From: Pseudomonadota bacterium
GTDB taxonomy: Bacteria > Desulfobacterota > Desulfobulbia > Desulfobulbales > Desulfocapsaceae
DNA: 57,686 nucleotides
Reading direction: 5' to 3'
Assembly (NCBI GenBank): GCA_018820855.1
Contig: JAHJNL010000094.1
Span: 1-57,686 of the forward strand
Shown one piece after another: positions 17,918 to 47,504 of the stretch; the stretch's first letter is position 1, and the number at the start of each line of letters is the position of its first letter. The translations under genes and the position numbers were made by a program. Under the pieces are notes generated by a model that saw nothing but the letters and a program-made list of their open reading frames with translations, was not told the DNA's origin and did no database searches.

Positions 17918-18012
17918 AAAGAAAAGAAAAGCCAAACTTGCCGTGAGGTAAGGACGGAACGTCACGGGTCTTATCCTCTTTTTTCTTCTACAGATAGCCG
18001 GACTCCCAAGAA
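17918..18012 (+). ncRNA. c-di-GMP-I (GEMM) riboswitch
   Basis: The sequence contains the conserved parts in order: GCCAAACTTGCCGTGAGG, with a TTGCC/GGTAA helix closed by the GNRA-type loop GTGA; GGACGGAACGTCACGGGTCT; a T-rich variable loop; and AGATAGCCGGACT. P3 pairs CGG-TCT with AGA-GCCG. This matches GEMM-I aptamers such as GCAAACC...GGGACGCAAAGCC...AGCCGGG. By eye the base equivalent to G20, which pairs with the ligand, is G, favouring c-di-GMP over cGAMP. It precedes the large secreted-protein gene by about 380 bases. Confidence 0.82.
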
Positions 18013-18395
18013 GTGTTTTTGTAGCTCATTTTTTGCAGGACAGGAATTCACATGTGCTCCCTGAAAGGAGGAAAGGTCGGAACACATCTTTTGTTATGGC
18101 TTGGTGCGGGCTTCGTTTCTTAACAAAAACAAACAAGGAGATAAAGTCATGCAAAAATGTGCTTTAGTGTAATTGCTACCCCCTTATTATATGAGAGAAA
18201 AACAATAATCATGGGATTGCGACGGCTATTGGGTAGAAAAAAACAACGGTTCACTACTCTGGCGAGCAAAGGGGGAACAATAAGAAATCAACAGGAAATC
18301 TTTTTGTTGCATGGCGATTCCTTGCAGACCCTACGCTCTTAAGTTCATAAAAAAACCTTTTGTATGTTCCGACAATTATAAGGGAGGAGAGTCCA
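18013..18395 (+). promoter_or_regulatory. Long leader with a 7-codon frame
   Basis: The leader between riboswitch and gene holds T-rich runs that may form the expression platform, a structured stretch near 18050-18090 (ATGTG...CACAT outer pairing, CTCC/GGAG inner) and, at 18149-18172, ATG-seven codons-TAA behind a strong AAGGAGAT site. The short frame may be a leader peptide or the start of a lost gene. Confidence 0.45.
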
Positions 18396-21300
18396 ATGAT
18401 GACACCTAAATTAACAGGTATTTTGTTCATTGCTTGCCTGCTCGTATCTTCAACGCTTTCTTTTGCAGCAAAGCCGATCCCGAATCCGGACGGAACCGGC
18501 ACCCTGACAGGTAAAGTCCTGATTGCCGGCACAAGAACCGCCATTGTCGGTGCAACAGTGACCGCTGTCGGCAACGAAACCTACACAGCAACAACTAATA
18601 GCACAGGGGTCTATACAATATTTCCGGTCGCCGGCGGCTACACCGTCACTGCCACCGCCGACGGCTACAACAACCAGACATTCTCAGCAACAGTCAGATC
18701 GGGAAAAAAAACAAACCTCAACTTTACCCTTTCTGAAGTCGTGTCGACCGCAGGTGTCCTTAATGGGACAGTGACTGACGCGACAAGCGGAAACCTGCTG
18801 AGCGACGTCCTGGTTGCAACCAACATTGGTGGTTACAGCACCCTGACAGTTGAGGGCCAATATTCTATGGTCGTTACGGCAGGGGATTACAGCCTGACTG
18901 CCTCTCTGGATGGCTATCAATCAGCGACAAAAGATACCGTGTCGGTTGCGCCGGATCAGATTACAACGACTAATTTTGCATTGAATGAACTCTCTGCTGG
19001 CCTGAGTATTACTGCGTTAACCGCTACTCCTGATTCCTTCAGGGAAGCCGACGCTACAACAATCTCACTGGTTGCTACAGTCGATGGAGCTCCTGACGAG
19101 TACATATGGGCACAAGTCTACGGTCCGAAAGTTGCTCTGACCGGTACAGGGACAACAGCAATCGCCGATGTTAGTAGCCTCGAGGTTGCCGCGGAGTGCG
19201 AACTGGTCTTCGAGCTGACTGTGGCAGAGGCTAGCGATACTGCATCAAAAACCGTGACAGTCCTGGTGCAACCAGCCGACATACTTCAATATCCTGGACC
19301 GAACGTCCAGATTGGCGGATCAACGACTGCCGTTGCCCGCTTCCAATACAACAGCGCCGAATGGTGCCTGTTCAATATTGGCACCACCCTCAAAGCGACC
19401 ACCGTCGGTATCAGCAAGGGAGCCGTTTACGACATCATCCTGCCAGGGATTGTTTATGATATTGAAATTTTCAATTACAGCGCGCAAACCTACGCCGTGG
19501 TAGCCATCGGTAGCGCAGGCGTCGCTGTTGTAAACATCTCGGATCCAGCCAATATGTCGCTTATCAGCGTAGCTCCGGTCAATTATTACTTCGACGGTGT
19601 AACCTATACCGAGGGCGGCGGTTCCATCCTCTACGACAATACTTTTGAAAGCAAGACCGGTCCCGTCGTTGCCCTGGCCAGCGATGGTACTGATCTCTAC
19701 CTCGGCGATAATGGTTTTGGCATCCACAAAACATCTCTGGCCAATCTCTTCGGCGATATTCGTGAAACGGATGGCACATTACTGATCGATCAGGAAGTTC
19801 TGACCGTCCAGTACGCAGGTGAGCATGCCTGGGGCGGCCCTATGTCACTGAAGTTCTACGGCGGCAAGCTGTTTGCCGGTCTGGGTGCTTTGGGTATGGG
19901 AATTTTTGATCCCGCAACCCTGGAACAAACCGGGCGCTATAACCTCTACACTGACGAAAGCCGCACGGAAGATTATTTCGGTGCCATGGCCCTGAGTCAG
20001 ACTGTGCATAGTGACCTTGCAGGAGATCTTTTCCTCGATGATTTCACCGGTATGCCTGACTATCGGCAGGTCAATTATGAAATCGGCATCATCATGCACG
20101 GCACAGAAGAAGGCGATACCCCCTGGGCCGACTTTGAACGCGAAGGTAAATGGTATTATGAGGCGGTTGATGTGGATGTTGCCCAACAAGGAGACCGTAC
20201 AATCGCATATATTGCCTACTCCCTCGGCGGAGTCATCGCAGTCGACATTACCGACTTCGAAACAGCGACGGCGACAAACTTCCTGACCGCTCCCTACCTA
20301 GGCTATTTTGTTGCTGTGCCGGCTAACGGCCCCTACGATACCGGTTCCGCACCATCCAGCTTGTTGCCTTATGAGGGGGCCGGCATGTTAAAAGAATCCG
20401 GTGTCTTGAGTGTCAACGTCTTGGATGATCGCCTTTATCTGACGGACCACTTTGCAGGCTTGGTTATCCTCAACAGCGCGGGTGCACCGGAGAACTGGCA
20501 CGGCGTTGCGCCTCCGTACAATAACGACACAGATGGGATCCCGGACAATAATGTTCCGGAGTTCGAAGACGTGACTTCATACGACATGTCACCTTGGGAC
20601 CCGAGCGACAACGAATCCCTGCAATGGGCCTATTATCAAACACCATGTGAACTGGCAACCCGTGAATTGAATGGCCACGGCTATGGATTGGCTCTGATGG
20701 ATGAAATTCTTCTGTCAGCGACAGGACAAATTGACATTCTCGAATGTTCCACCGCCGGTGGCCTCGTTTTTGTTAATGTCGTCGATATTGAGGCCCCCTT
20801 GATGGATGATCGCTTCGAAATTACGGTTCACTTCCCGTCAACCGATGAGATAGGGGCCGCTCCAGATGGTTCTGCCACCGCCACTATCTCGCTTGGCCAC
20901 ACCGACGGCATTGCTGCAACCGAGAATTACATCTATGTCTCTGATGGCCCACACGGCATCACTGCCTGGAAGATTACCGATGACGAGGGTTACCCGACAG
21001 ATGAAGTTCACGTTGTCGCCAACACCCTTCAGGACGAATATCCCATTGATGTCGGTGGAGAATTGATCTACCCGGCGTCGCACACGGTGCGTAACGTCAT
21101 CGATCCGAATGGCCAGTTCACATGGGCACTCTGTGTCGGAAATGGTATGCGTCGCATACCTATTGCTGACGTCGAAGCAGGGCTTGGCGAGGTTGGCATG
21201 CCGCTATTGATGAAACTCCATAGCGAAGACAGTTTTGAGCACAACGCTGATTGGGGTGTGGTCAAAATGTTCAACTATCAGGATCAGGCTTATGATGTTG

Positions 21301-22070
21301 AGTTTTTCGGCAACTATGCTTATGTCGCTGATGGTACCAATGGACTAACCATCTACGACACCACCAAAGACCCGACCGATGCTCATAGCGGTTTCTTTGT
21401 AGGGAATATCGGCAACAAAAAGGGCAACAAAAAGGGTAACCCACTGCTCGGCACCGTCTCGGGCATTGAACTCTGGACAGATCCAACGGGAAAACGATAT
21501 GCGATTCTTGCGTGTGGTCCTTATGGTGTCGGTGTGGTTGATATTACTGATATCAATAACATGCAGATCGTCAAGGTCTTTGAACCAATTAAGTATGAAA
21601 ACGGCGATCTTGGCTCGGCTGACGGCCAGGCCATTGACGTTGAAGTTGTCGGTAACAATGCCTACTTCGGCTACGACAGCTTTGGCCTCGTTGCCTACAG
21701 CATGGCTGATCTGGTTGACCCGTTACCGGACGGGGTCGATCCGACTGAATTGTTCAAAAAAGAAGCTGACGGTGCGGTGGTCTACGACTATCGCCCGGAA
21801 TTCCTCGGCAAGTTTAAGCTGCAAGAAGTTGAAGGCTATGAAAATGTCGACGGCGGCAGCGTGAAGATGGCTTACACCCAGCAATCTGGAAATCTCTACT
21901 TCTACACAGCATTCGGCCATTACGGTGTAGTGAAAATCGATTACACCGATGCGGCAGCTCCAGTATTCTTGGATGCGGTTCCGACGGCGTCAGAATGTGT
22001 CGATGTTGAAATCTCCAACGGTCGCCTCTATGTCGGCGATCACGCTGGAGGCTTGGTTCTTTTTAAATAG
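18396..22070 (+). CDS. Large secreted protein: carboxypeptidase-regulatory-like domains plus LVIVD-type propeller
   Basis: A 1224-residue protein. A signal peptide (MTPKLTGILFIACLLVSSTL, cut after SFAA) is followed by two CarboxypepD-regulatory-like beta domains (GTLTGKVLIAGTRTAIVGAT about 25-100; GVLNGTVTDATSGNLLSDV about 108-185), an Ig-like region (about 190-285), then a long array of LVIVD-like blades, for example YVADGTNGLTIYD, YLTDHFAGLVIL, YVSDGPHGITAW and the last, YVGDHAGGLVLF. Such repeats build beta-propellers on surface or extracellular proteins and serve binding or adhesion. GGGAGGAG precedes the ATG at 18396. A short NKKG repeat (21416-21441) looks like a replication slip. Expression is probably set by the c-di-GMP riboswitch upstream. 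No transmembrane anchor or sorting tail is seen; the protein ends VLFK. Confidence 0.85.
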   Translation: MMTPKLTGILFIACLLVSSTLSFAAKPIPNPDGTGTLTGKVLIAGTRTAIVGATVTAVGNETYTATTNSTGVYTIFPVAGGYTVTATADGYNNQTFSATVRSGKKTNLNFTLSEVVSTAGVLNGTVTDATSGNLLSDVLVATNIGGYSTLTVEGQYSMVVTAGDYSLTASLDGYQSATKDTVSVAPDQITTTNFALNELSAGLSITALTATPDSFREADATTISLVATVDGAPDEYIWAQVYGPKVALTGTGTTAIADVSSLEVAAECELVFELTVAEASDTASKTVTVLVQPADILQYPGPNVQIGGSTTAVARFQYNSAEWCLFNIGTTLKATTVGISKGAVYDIILPGIVYDIEIFNYSAQTYAVVAIGSAGVAVVNISDPANMSLISVAPVNYYFDGVTYTEGGGSILYDNTFESKTGPVVALASDGTDLYLGDNGFGIHKTSLANLFGDIRETDGTLLIDQEVLTVQYAGEHAWGGPMSLKFYGGKLFAGLGALGMGIFDPATLEQTGRYNLYTDESRTEDYFGAMALSQTVHSDLAGDLFLDDFTGMPDYRQVNYEIGIIMHGTEEGDTPWADFEREGKWYYEAVDVDVAQQGDRTIAYIAYSLGGVIAVDITDFETATATNFLTAPYLGYFVAVPANGPYDTGSAPSSLLPYEGAGMLKESGVLSVNVLDDRLYLTDHFAGLVILNSAGAPENWHGVAPPYNNDTDGIPDNNVPEFEDVTSYDMSPWDPSDNESLQWAYYQTPCELATRELNGHGYGLALMDEILLSATGQIDILECSTAGGLVFVNVVDIEAPLMDDRFEITVHFPSTDEIGAAPDGSATATISLGHTDGIAATENYIYVSDGPHGITAWKITDDEGYPTDEVHVVANTLQDEYPIDVGGELIYPASHTVRNVIDPNGQFTWALCVGNGMRRIPIADVEAGLGEVGMPLLMKLHSEDSFEHNADWGVVKMFNYQDQAYDVEFFGNYAYVADGTNGLTIYDTTKDPTDAHSGFFVGNIGNKKGNKKGNPLLGTVSGIELWTDPTGKRYAILACGPYGVGVVDITDINNMQIVKVFEPIKYENGDLGSADGQAIDVEVVGNNAYFGYDSFGLVAYSMADLVDPLPDGVDPTELFKKEADGAVVYDYRPEFLGKFKLQEVEGYENVDGGSVKMAYTQQSGNLYFYTAFGHYGVVKIDYTDAAAPVFLDAVPTASECVDVEISNGRLYVGDHAGGLVLFK

Positions 22071-22790: not shown

Positions 22791-23522
22791 ATGCGAACCA
22801 GATTCCTTCTTATTCCCATACTGCTTATTCTTTCATCTTCCCATTTCCTATCAGCAGCTGCCTACCAACCCTGGTCTGAAAGTGTTTTCATACATATCAA
22901 CAAGGAGTTTGGCCCTGAGGCTGAAAAACGTGTGCGCGACCTCCACGATATTGTAGTCAAAAACCAGAATAAATCAGTTGACGAAAAGCTGCTCCTTGTC
23001 AACGACACCATAAACAAGCTTCCATGGATTGCCGACAAAGAGCATTGGCAGCAGACGGATTACTGGGCTACCCCAATGGAAACACTGGCAACATTTGGTG
23101 GTGATTGTGAAGACATAGCCATTGCCAAATGGGTGATGCTCAGACATTTGGGCGTACCGAAAGAGAATCTTCGACTGGCCTATGTCAAGGTCAAGGCAAC
23201 TGGCGAAAACCACATGATTCTGGCCTATGTCGAGAGAATTGATCTGCCCAGGGAGCAGAGACTGGAAACGACATGGATACTGGACAACATTGACAAGAGA
23301 TTACTGACAGCTACGGAACGAACGGACTTGCTGACCATTTATGCAACAGATGCCGATGGCAACATGGTGGTTTTCAAGGACTCCGATGGAGAGCTCTCAA
23401 TTTTGAGCGTCCGGGAAAAGACCAAGATGCAAAAGCTTGAAGAGATAAAAAAGAAAATAGATGAGAATACTGCCTTTGTTCAGAAGCTTAATGCTGAACA
23501 GTCGGCGCATTCTGCTGAGTAG
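22791..23522 (+). CDS. LapG-like transglutaminase-type cysteine protease
   Basis: A 243-residue exported protein (signal peptide about 1-24) of the BTLCP/DUF920 family. The catalytic triad is visible: Cys106 in FGGDCEDIA, His141 in TGENHMILAY and Asp165 in WILDN. In Pseudomonas, LapG is a calcium-dependent periplasmic protease that releases the adhesin LapA when c-di-GMP is low and LapD lets it go. No LapD or LapA gene is in the window. The C-terminal helix (EKTKMQKLEEIKKKIDE, about 205-240) is extra compared with LapG. AATTGGAGATAACC precedes the start. Confidence 0.85.
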   Translation: MRTRFLLIPILLILSSSHFLSAAAYQPWSESVFIHINKEFGPEAEKRVRDLHDIVVKNQNKSVDEKLLLVNDTINKLPWIADKEHWQQTDYWATPMETLATFGGDCEDIAIAKWVMLRHLGVPKENLRLAYVKVKATGENHMILAYVERIDLPREQRLETTWILDNIDKRLLTATERTDLLTIYATDADGNMVVFKDSDGELSILSVREKTKMQKLEEIKKKIDENTAFVQKLNAEQSAHSAE

Positions 23523-38981: not shown

Positions 38982-40595
38982 TCACCATGTATATTTCAAT
39001 GCCAGATTTCCCTGAAATCCTTTTTCGCCGTCAAATACCTCTTCGACCTGACCTTGCAGGTTCAAGCTTTTGCTGAGTTTATAGTCTGCACCGACAGTCA
39101 GCACATAACTGTTCTGGTTTAATTCACTAATTGCCAGGTCGCCTGCGACACTGACTTCATTGGGATTCGAAAAATCACAGATATAACCGAGTTTGGCCCA
39201 GATACTGGACTGGCGATCCTGAGCGCTGCTCAGAGTTTTCCTTACTGCTATGCCAAGGCGCCCCTGGAAAGACTCTCCTTGATTTAATGAAACACGGGCA
39301 CCAAGGTTGTCATTAAAATCGCTCTGGCCAATCCTTAGATAGGAAAGTTGTAGTTGCGGTTCAATGGCCCAACTGTTGTTCTGCCGGAAAGAAATACCGT
39401 TTTCAACTGTAACGGCTGTGATATTACCGTCATAATCCTGATTGAGTCCATATCCAAGCTCGCCCGGTACCGTATTCTCGAAGTCAAGTCCGCCAAACAG
39501 TATTGAACCGCTCCCATACCAGGAACGGGGACTATCCGAACTTTGCATATAGAGGCCATACACTCCTCCAACTGTGGCCTTCGACTTGTTTTCGACATCG
39601 CTGATCCCGTATTTTTGCAAGTTGACCCCCAGGCCAAACATGACTCCCCAATACCCCCTTGACTGATCTGCGGATTGTTGTCCGTTGATCATCCGCTGCC
39701 AGCCAATACTCATGCCTCCAGTCTGGGAGTTTACGGAGCTGCCGTCAACTTCTTCGTAGTCCAGATTACCGCCGAAAACGCGTAGCCAAAGCTCTCCCTC
39801 CGGGTTTCCTGCCTCTCCTGCGCCTGAATCATGAAGATTGCCTGCCGCATGTCGAGTCTGATCCAGATGCCAACCAAGATCGGTTGCTATACTGCGACCG
39901 GCTTTCTGCGCACTTGTAACTGCGCCGGAATAGCTTTTTAAATAGTCGGGAGCATAAAGGGCATAGACCAGCCAACTGGTTAAGGCGCCACGGTAATAAT
40001 ATTGATAAGCTCCACCGCTTCGATATTCGCCGTTCTTTTCCATCGGTGCAGCAATTCCGCCGACCAACGTGTATCCCGGCGGCATATCGATCACATATAT
40101 TCGCTGCAGATCGCTTCCCCATGCAGCCAATATTGCCTGTTCGTCACGGCTAGCCTGTATTCCCCGATACTGATCGCCCCACCAACTACCCAGGTAACCC
40201 AACGCCTCTTTATAACCACTGTTGCCCCGTCGGTATAAGCGAAAGGTGGCATTGGGAGAAACAATATCCAGCTTGGTGTCGGTAACCCCGACCAGACTGG
40301 TGAACGAATAAAAATTCGTGTAATCCGTGACTCCGGATCCTGTCTGGTAAAATCTGGGGTTAATGCCCGCATTCTGCAGAATTTTGACCTTGCGATCCAA
40401 GCGACTGTCCGTAACACCTTCGTAAATATTAAAAGCATCCAAACCATCTCGATCACTTTTAATGGTTTTGTTGGATTGAATCTCCTGATCAATGTCTGCC
40501 AGAGTCTCAGCCGACGCCAACGGGAGTGGCAGCAGAAACATCACACCTGGCAAAAAACTTGTCGACACGCGGAATAGATACCACAACAGTTTCAT
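38982..40595 (-). CDS. Autotransporter with TNT-like (NAD glycohydrolase/ADP-ribosyltransferase-fold) passenger
   Basis: A 537-residue protein with a signal peptide (about 1-29). Residues 265-537 are a classic autotransporter beta-barrel (alternating strands, LWLRVFGGNLDY at its start, final ALKYTW with a terminal aromatic). The passenger (about 50-210) resembles the TNT fold of tuberculosis necrotizing toxin: YRRGNSG (Arg122) for the RxG start, SRDEQAILAA (Arg150) for the second Arg, YVIDMPPGYTLVGGIAAP, then SGGAYQYYYRG (Gln198) for the GGGTQY motif. In TNT these residues bind and split NAD. The TNT assignment is by eye and is not certain. The gene stands alone; no immunity gene was recognised next to it. 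Confidence 0.72.
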   Translation of the reverse strand: MKLLWYLFRVSTSFLPGVMFLLPLPLASAETLADIDQEIQSNKTIKSDRDGLDAFNIYEGVTDSRLDRKVKILQNAGINPRFYQTGSGVTDYTNFYSFTSLVGVTDTKLDIVSPNATFRLYRRGNSGYKEALGYLGSWWGDQYRGIQASRDEQAILAAWGSDLQRIYVIDMPPGYTLVGGIAAPMEKNGEYRSGGAYQYYYRGALTSWLVYALYAPDYLKSYSGAVTSAQKAGRSIATDLGWHLDQTRHAAGNLHDSGAGEAGNPEGELWLRVFGGNLDYEEVDGSSVNSQTGGMSIGWQRMINGQQSADQSRGYWGVMFGLGVNLQKYGISDVENKSKATVGGVYGLYMQSSDSPRSWYGSGSILFGGLDFENTVPGELGYGLNQDYDGNITAVTVENGISFRQNNSWAIEPQLQLSYLRIGQSDFNDNLGARVSLNQGESFQGRLGIAVRKTLSSAQDRQSSIWAKLGYICDFSNPNEVSVAGDLAISELNQNSYVLTVGADYKLSKSLNLQGQVEEVFDGEKGFQGNLALKYTW

Positions 40596-46667: not shown

Positions 46668-47450
46668 CTACCTGCCAACTAGCCCTCGCACAAACATTGG
46701 CAAGGTCTCCGCAACATCCCCGCGAAAGAAATAATCCGTCCGCCGGGAAGACACGGAATCAGCTGCGCTCAGCACAGTAGATTCTTTATTGAACTCATAG
46801 AGCAAGCCACCATTCTGTTTCACCATTAGCGGCAACTCTGCAGCCGGATAGACCTGCGCTGATGTGCCAATAACCATCAACAGGTCACAAGAGAAAATAA
46901 GTTCATAGATTTCGCCCAAACTTCGAACGGCCTCACCGAACAGGACAATATTTGGCTTCAAGGGAAAAGCACAACTGCTGCATTGCGGAATATCCCCTGC
47001 CTGATAATGCTCTTCTCTTACCGGTATTACGCTCTCACACTGGACACATTGCAGATGCTGGTGATCACCGTGTATCTCGATCACATTTTTATTACCGGCG
47101 AGTTGATGGAGATTATCTACATTCTGAGTGACGACGCCGTTTAAGAGACCGGCATGTTCCATTTCAGCCAAGGCATGATGCGCTGGATTAGGTTTTTTAC
47201 CAAGAAGAATCTTCCCCATGGCACGGTACAGCTCCCATGCCTTTGCAGGTGTCCGCATAAAGACGTCAAACGTGGCGTATTCATCAGGCGAGTAAACCGT
47301 CCACAGACCATCCGCACTGCGAAAATCAGGGATACCACTCCCAACTGAAACCCCGGCCCCGGTTAATGCCACAGGGTTTGACGCTGCCTGAAAGCGGGCA
47401 ACCGCTTCGGCAAGATGGTGCTCATCTGTATTTGCAATGATCGATTTCAT
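46668..47450 (-). CDS. Sir2-family NAD-dependent protein deacylase
   Basis: A 260-residue sirtuin. NAD-binding GAGVSVGSGIPDFRSADG (31-48), TQNVDNLHQLAG, the catalytic His in VIEIHGDHQHL, a four-cysteine zinc site (CVQC and CSSC) and the late GTSAQVYPAAELP. It should remove acetyl or other acyl groups from lysines using NAD. The start at 47450 (MKSIIANTDEHHLAEAV) is preferred to the codons upstream, which have no conserved sequence. It lies between two decayed transposases. Confidence 0.93.
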   Translation of the reverse strand: MKSIIANTDEHHLAEAVARFQAASNPVALTGAGVSVGSGIPDFRSADGLWTVYSPDEYATFDVFMRTPAKAWELYRAMGKILLGKKPNPAHHALAEMEHAGLLNGVVTQNVDNLHQLAGNKNVIEIHGDHQHLQCVQCESVIPVREEHYQAGDIPQCSSCAFPLKPNIVLFGEAVRSLGEIYELIFSCDLLMVIGTSAQVYPAAELPLMVKQNGGLLYEFNKESTVLSAADSVSSRRTDYFFRGDVAETLPMFVRGLVGR

Positions 47451-47504
47451 CGATAGAGAACAATAGTAATAAAAAAACCACAAAAAAACAAAAAGAGGCC
47501 GTAG

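Follow-up and report, generated by a model that had tools for sequence, protein, structure and literature searches.

Enzymes that destroy nicotinamide adenine dinucleotide (NAD), the NAD glycohydrolases (NADases), have been described as toxins delivered by type VI or type VII secretion systems (T6SS, T7SS), as parts of contact-dependent inhibition (CDI) proteins, or as enzymes displayed by fungi. Tne2 is a PAAR-type T6SS effector with the immunity protein Tni2 (PMC10539506), and Tne5-like NADase domains occur in CDI proteins, which are type Vb systems (PMC13285283). AfNADase is displayed on the cell surface, and a homologue of the immunity factor of tuberculosis necrotizing toxin (TNT) was looked for in its genome and not found (PMC7955114). 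Here we analyse an autotransporter gene at 38982..40595 on the minus strand of contig JAHJNL010000094.1 from a member of the Desulfocapsaceae, order Desulfobulbales; the 57,686 nucleotides analysed are called the window. We consider it probable that the gene encodes a monomeric type Va autotransporter with a Tne2/TNT-type NAD(P)+ glycohydrolase as passenger, which is surface-displayed or shed and needs no immunity gene.

Architecture and conservation of the autotransporter

The gene, supported by its open reading frame, its translation and its relatives, comprises 537 codons and a stop. A preliminary description of the locus had given the correct coordinates and had not mentioned the strand; all features of the gene given below lie on the minus strand. 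The protein begins with a signal-like sequence read by eye (residues 1-29, 40509..40595), which ends in LPLASA and is followed by ETLADID, and relatives share a mature start at E-T/S. The N-terminal extension of the passenger (residues 30-79, 40359..40508) is partly helical in model 1 and has 54-74% identity in eight of nine rows compared and 30% in the ninth, L023. The catalytic-type domain follows (residues 80-215, 39951..40358), whose assignment to the Tne2/TNT-type NADase fold draws on a fold match, on homology to toxin domains and on a combined profile. The linker (residues 216-265, 39801..39950) is predicted to be helical at mature residues 193-202 and 207-223 in model 1, and one of these helices may run into the barrel pore. 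The beta-barrel (residues 266-537, 38985..39800) ends in Trp. PF03797 matches residues 269-517 (E 1.3e-29, 104 bits against a cut-off of 26) and TIGR01414 residues 252-537 (E 3.9e-30), which confirms the barrel previously placed at residues 265-537.

Passenger and barrel form a single chain, and relatives share this layout. Judged from its sequence, the protein thus combines the C-terminal PF03797 barrel, the signal-like sequence and the N-terminal passenger that define a type Va autotransporter. The 4.8-Mb genome contains no other PF03797 match at E <= 0.001. The G+C content of the gene is 0.49, that of the window 0.47, and promoter and terminator scans gave scores no better than shuffles. 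Pfam, PHROGs and PADLOC returned no family for the passenger, and NCBIfam names the barrel only.

Conservation was assessed in 16 autotransporter rows including the window; L022 lacks the barrel end, L066 lacks the protein start, L069-L071 are mutually close, and L072 was excluded for a weak match with an internal stop. Identical in all 16 rows are R122, R123, G136, W138, Y143, R150, A154, W159, G160, P172, G180, A182, E190, R192, G194, G195, Q198, Y199 and W208, and G124 is identical in 15. R122 (40230..40232) is the Arg of the RxG motif and by motif the counterpart of AfNADase R129 and TNT R757. W138 (40182..40184) is the proposed aromatic residue of an R-F-Q triad, where toxin domains have GQFF, GEYL or similar, and R150 (40146..40148) is the second Arg. 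G180 and A182 lie in GGIAAP (residues 179-184, 40044..40061), which lines up with G.IAP in the TNT profile, and Q198 lies in SGGAYQYYY (residues 193-201, 39993..40019). The passenger strings that had been likened to TNT are therefore present, with R122, R150 and Q198 correctly numbered, and invariance in 16 rows places all three beyond chance. Poor conservation of the Arg and Gln residues, which had been named as evidence against a TNT-like passenger, was not observed.

The passenger is under stronger constraint than the barrel. Identity to the window in residues 80-215 is 68-83% in eight of nine rows, and in the barrel 36-69%; L023 has 35% and 27%, respectively. Residues 80-215 are the most conserved of five segments in every one of the nine rows, with a margin of one point in L023. 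In five comparisons the nonsynonymous divergence (dN) of the catalytic domain is 0.40-0.54 of that of the barrel, for example 0.087 against 0.220, where synonymous divergence (dS) is at least 1 and the ratios are rough. This difference in constraint speaks for a conserved activity.

Fold of the passenger and its relation to toxin domains and TNT

The predicted passenger matches the fold of Tne2 (PDB 6B12), the closest structure, with 16% identity in the structure alignment. A fold unlike that of ADP-ribosyltransferases or TNT, the other outcome that would have spoken against the earlier proposal, was not found, as the model matches the Tne2/TNT type. The TNT structure 4qlp is not among the structural matches listed, which does not exclude TNT. 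Model and alignment together support the view that the passenger shares both its fold and its key residues with NAD glycohydrolases of the TNT type.

By profile comparison, the closest relatives of the passenger outside autotransporters are an unnamed family of polymorphic-toxin domains. Our profile A7 of this family comprises seven domains: L027 and L064 in Rhs proteins, L065 beside a filamentous-haemagglutinin gene, a domain from Clostridium hydrogenum, and the three further domains L061-L063. Five of seven plasmid records were used, H6 and H11 (short match) being left out, and the source taxa are Rahnella, Sphingomonas, Rhodoferax, Paraburkholderia and C. hydrogenum. Neither Pfam nor NCBIfam has a name for A7, and its best PDB sequence match (E 0.65) is not credible. 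The profile aligns with the passenger profile A3 at an hhalign probability (Prob) of 96.2% (E 2.5e-9, 33% identity over 88 columns), and the score of 58.4 compares with a maximum of 22.3 among 199 scored shuffles. Because C. hydrogenum contributes a row to both profiles, the comparison was repeated without its rows. Six toxin domains then aligned with six autotransporters at Prob 89% (E 2.3e-6, score 41.9) and with 16 autotransporters at Prob 87% (E 3.7e-6, score 40.0), and neither score was reached by 150 shuffles (maxima 22.7 and 21.3).

The relative in C. hydrogenum is a stand-alone open reading frame of 138 amino acids, followed by one of 95 amino acids. Upstream lies a toxin-like gene of 743 amino acids that appears LXG/T7SS-like by eye; Pfam gave no LXG match and WXG100 at E 0.09. 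A3 also matches the C-terminal domain of this gene (E 0.0019). The C. hydrogenum locus (L024, 1040-3271 and 5977-6393) carries two related NADase-like domains, one C-terminal and one stand-alone. The C-terminal Rhs domain on a Rahnella plasmid reached only E 0.7 in tblastn, yet aligns with A3 at Prob 91%. In Rahnella, the gene next to the toxin domain encodes a DUF6966 protein, which may represent an immunity family. Visual inspection placed a Nostoc plasmid match (E 0.3) within a YD-repeat stretch, and this match was rejected; other weak matches came from an Enterococcus phage (E 0.5) and Sinorhizobium (E 0.8).

Alignment A10 combines both groups (15 rows, seven of them the toxin domains of A7). 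Invariant are G124, G136, A154, W159, P172, G180, G194, G195 and Q198, and columns of at least 90% conservation include R122, R150, G174 and W208. The position of R122 is Lys in toxin-domain row L065, that of R150 Lys in the C-terminal toxin domain of C. hydrogenum. E190 and R192 (40020-40028) are common to all 16 autotransporters and the C. hydrogenum stand-alone domain and are absent from the seven A7 domains. Searched against the PDB, A10 finds Tne2 first (E 0.0045), while A3 and A7 alone do not return it at E <= 10. PDB sequence searches with P0001, A1 and A3 found BrkA for the barrel, whereas the passenger gave either chance matches, namely EsxB (E 0.14) and pertussis S2 (E 0.15-0.2), or none; searches with single toxin domains were equally unsuccessful.

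The tie to TNT itself is more distant. PF14021, the family proposed earlier for the passenger, has no match in the protein (limit E 10, where HMMER filters drop most matches above about 0.1) and none in the genome at E <= 1. In the phylum, 0 of 297 genomes matched at E <= 1e-6, in a scan in which no control genome matched either and which does not establish absence. Profile A5 was built from 11 PF14021 domains out of 20 loci, after excluding seven near-duplicates as well as L050 and L060 with short flanks. It works as a profile, since a PDB search with it recovers both TNT (E 5e-9) and the fungal NADases (E 4e-27 to 5e-24). PF14021 is frequent in the class of genome G544: 28 of 300 genomes account for 34 listed places, and four of them carry it two or three times.

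A3 aligns with A5 at Prob 7% (P 0.005), an alignment that brings G.IAP and GG..QY into register and scores 22.8 against a maximum of 20.9 in 200 shuffles. Autotransporter-only profiles reach Prob 6-8% with scores of 23.1 and 22.0, each reached by one of 150 shuffles. A10 reaches Prob 1.9%, and A7 stays within the shuffles, 13 of 200 of which reach its score. Of the TNT motifs DRXG and QRXL, the R and G of the former and the R of the latter are kept; D (Y121), Q (S149) and L (E152) are absent. The GG..Q motif with its conserved Gln is present in all 16 rows. A distant tie to TNT is plausible from fold and motifs, and sequence gives no demonstration of it. In this sense the TNT-like passenger of the preliminary description stands as to fold type and key residues, and not as a member of TNT proper.

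Neighbourhood, distribution and descent

No conserved partner of the gene was found in the loci compared. By eye, the neighbours differ from those at seven listed relative loci. Compared with 19 relative loci, the 26 flanking frames of at least 30 codons gave no match better than E 0.046, and the autotransporter itself matched in all 19; eight of these loci are four pairs of the same contig, and several have short flanks. The adjacent frames were accordingly rejected as immunity genes, in agreement with the earlier observation that none is recognisable nearby. The usual polymorphic-toxin layout of a C-terminal toxin with a downstream immunity gene is not found here: the domain is N-terminal to a barrel, and no small neighbour is conserved in the loci compared.

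Among 93 genomes of the same family, five besides that of the window carry the passenger. Four of these proteins have 58-72% identity over nearly their entire length; the fifth, from G007 of the same genus, has 32% over residues 89-535. Three further genomes of the family gave barrel-only matches. A scan of genome contigs found nine loci, eight autotransporters and one stand-alone domain, four of them on the same contigs as in the family scan. They derive from Desulfobulbaceae (two), Desulfobulbus, Desulfobacterales, a "Proteobacteria bacterium", an uncultured bacterium, Sporomusaceae, a "Bacillota bacterium" and C. hydrogenum. A3 matches 8 of 257 genomes of the order, window included, and 1 of 297 across the phylum, the window's own. 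Within Bacillota, the protein occurs in 2 of 2 genomes of one order and, at E < 1e-50, in 6 of 28 of a second, which adds one weak match (centre genomes counted in both). These carriers would be diderm and of Negativicutes type, given the name Sporomusaceae and the fact that barrels occur in them. Viral contigs contained no relative of the passenger in two scans and none of the Clostridium domain in one, and 1 of 206 genomes of the Clostridium family matched, C. hydrogenum itself. The Bacillota copy L022 (5836-7344; 502 amino acids) stops short of the barrel end. Genome G002 of the same family (contigs 82, 64 and 9; L008, L011-L015) has six barrel matches, four on one contig and five within open frames of 861-2010 amino acids.

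The main groups agree between midpoint-rooted trees of the passenger (16 rows) and of the barrel (15 rows). Seven Desulfobulbales-type rows including the window cluster together (support 90/87 and 83/96), two Sporomusaceae-like rows adjoin them, and the remaining Bacillota rows are more distant. The agreement is consistent with a fusion that has been stable and has been transferred between phyla. This simple picture is called into question by the same-genus sequence G007/L023, which falls outside the group on a very long branch (more than 2 changes per column).

Elsewhere in the window, about 6 kb from the autotransporter, 46668-47483 (-) encodes a SIR2-family protein (E 5.4e-49), which is NAD-using; no link between the two is shown. 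A c-di-GMP-I riboswitch (50.2 bits) at 17921-18010 (+) lies upstream of 18360-22070 (+), which encodes a 1236-residue protein with CarboxypepD_reg and LVIVD domains. This is followed at 22791-23522 (+) by a transglutaminase-like cysteine proteinase of family PF06035. The three are possibly a surface protein and protease set under c-di-GMP control.

Proposed function and comparison with known systems

AfNADase loses its activity when R129, F137 or Q194 is mutated; nicotinamide is bound by R148, and the Gln occupies the position of the catalytic acid of transferases (PMC7955114). TNT requires F727, R757 and R780 (PMC6398120). Rhs1-CT loses toxicity in F1386A, R1418A and Q1452A, the Gln being invariant among the four NADases of that comparison (PMC10539506). 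By alignment and motif order, R122, W138, R150 and Q198 would take these roles.

The analysis establishes the architecture, the conservation, the match of the predicted fold and the homology to polymorphic-toxin domains, and it found no conserved partner in the loci compared; secretion, enzymatic activity, single-residue roles and the target are inferred. A Sec signal would direct the protein to the periplasm, and the C-terminal barrel would insert in the outer membrane and bring the passenger of about 235 residues to the surface, where it would fold. Since it would fold outside its own cytosol, no immunity gene would be needed. R122 and R150 would hold nicotinamide and phosphates, W138 would pack on the ribose, and Q198 would position a ribose hydroxyl while water cleaves off nicotinamide. 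Displayed or shed, the NADase could act on other cells or on NAD from lysed cells.

An ADP-ribosyltransferase that modifies protein, nucleic acid or a small molecule outside the cell is unlikely. On alignment and the cited papers, the position of Q198 corresponds to that of the catalytic acid in R-S-E and H-Y-E transferases, and its being Gln in all 16 rows makes hydrolysis more likely than transfer. The nearest relatives outside autotransporters are toxin C-terminal domains or stand-alone cassettes, and a small gene follows the C. hydrogenum stand-alone domain and six of the seven A7 domains, the stretch of the seventh ending there. These facts would suit an antibacterial polymorphic toxin that depends on contact and has an immunity protein that was missed. 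We regard this as quite unlikely, given the differing neighbours by eye, the lack of good matches to the flanking frames across 19 loci, and a domain that precedes the barrel, shows conservation instead of diversification and comes with no delivery module that was recognised.

An NADase fold that has lost catalysis and serves binding or adhesion would recall the many autotransporter passengers that are adhesins, and the activity of the passenger is a prediction. It is nevertheless very unlikely, as the predicted active-site residues are identical in all 16 rows and residues 80-215 are the most conserved segment in all nine. Least probable of all is a TNT domain proper: PF14021 does not match, hhalign gives Prob 7% for A3 and 2% for A10, the autotransporter-only profiles score no higher than one of 150 shuffles, and the closest structure is Tne2.

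Preferring the NADase autotransporter over these alternatives, we lean towards a new class of immunity-free, surface-displayed NADase autotransporters, in which a polymorphic-toxin NADase domain was captured in front of a barrel, became fixed as a conserved enzyme outside the cell and was exchanged between Desulfobulbales and diderm Bacillota. If so, environmental bacteria of the Desulfobulbales and Bacillota can present an NAD-destroying enzyme at their surface through an export route that is among the simplest. This raises the question of what is gained by cleaving NAD outside the cell, be it attack on predators or rivals, scavenging or signalling. It also provides testable residues in a family of toxin domains that neither Pfam nor NCBIfam recognised here. 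The literature searched (titles and abstract starts, with subscription papers and preprints mostly outside) gave no description of an autotransporter with a TNT or NADase passenger.

With TNT and the PF14021 family, AfNADase included, the passenger shares the fold class, RxG, the second Arg and GG..Q, but it has no HMM match, and in profile-profile comparison it scores about as high as the best shuffles do. The surface display of AfNADase is a further likeness to the proposed NADase. In contrast to Tne2, the domain precedes a barrel as its passenger; no conserved partner was found in the loci compared, and no delivery module but the barrel was recognised. Members of the A7 family sit at the C-terminus of large toxins or form cassettes of their own, mostly followed by a small gene; in A10 they share 14-23% identity with the domain of the window, which is an N-terminal passenger. 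Type Va autotransporters usually carry long beta-helices with protease or adhesin function. The protein shares their signal-like sequence, N-terminal passenger and PF03797 barrel, but its passenger is a compact enzyme-like domain. CDI proteins use two-partner secretion and have a C-terminal toxin with an immunity gene, unlike the N-terminal passenger without a conserved immunity gene found here. The preliminary description regarded a type V autotransporter with a TNT domain as a new combination. As NADase export by type V is known in CDI (PMC13285283), what is new here lies in the use of a monomeric autotransporter, with its passenger at the N-terminus and without a conserved immunity gene.
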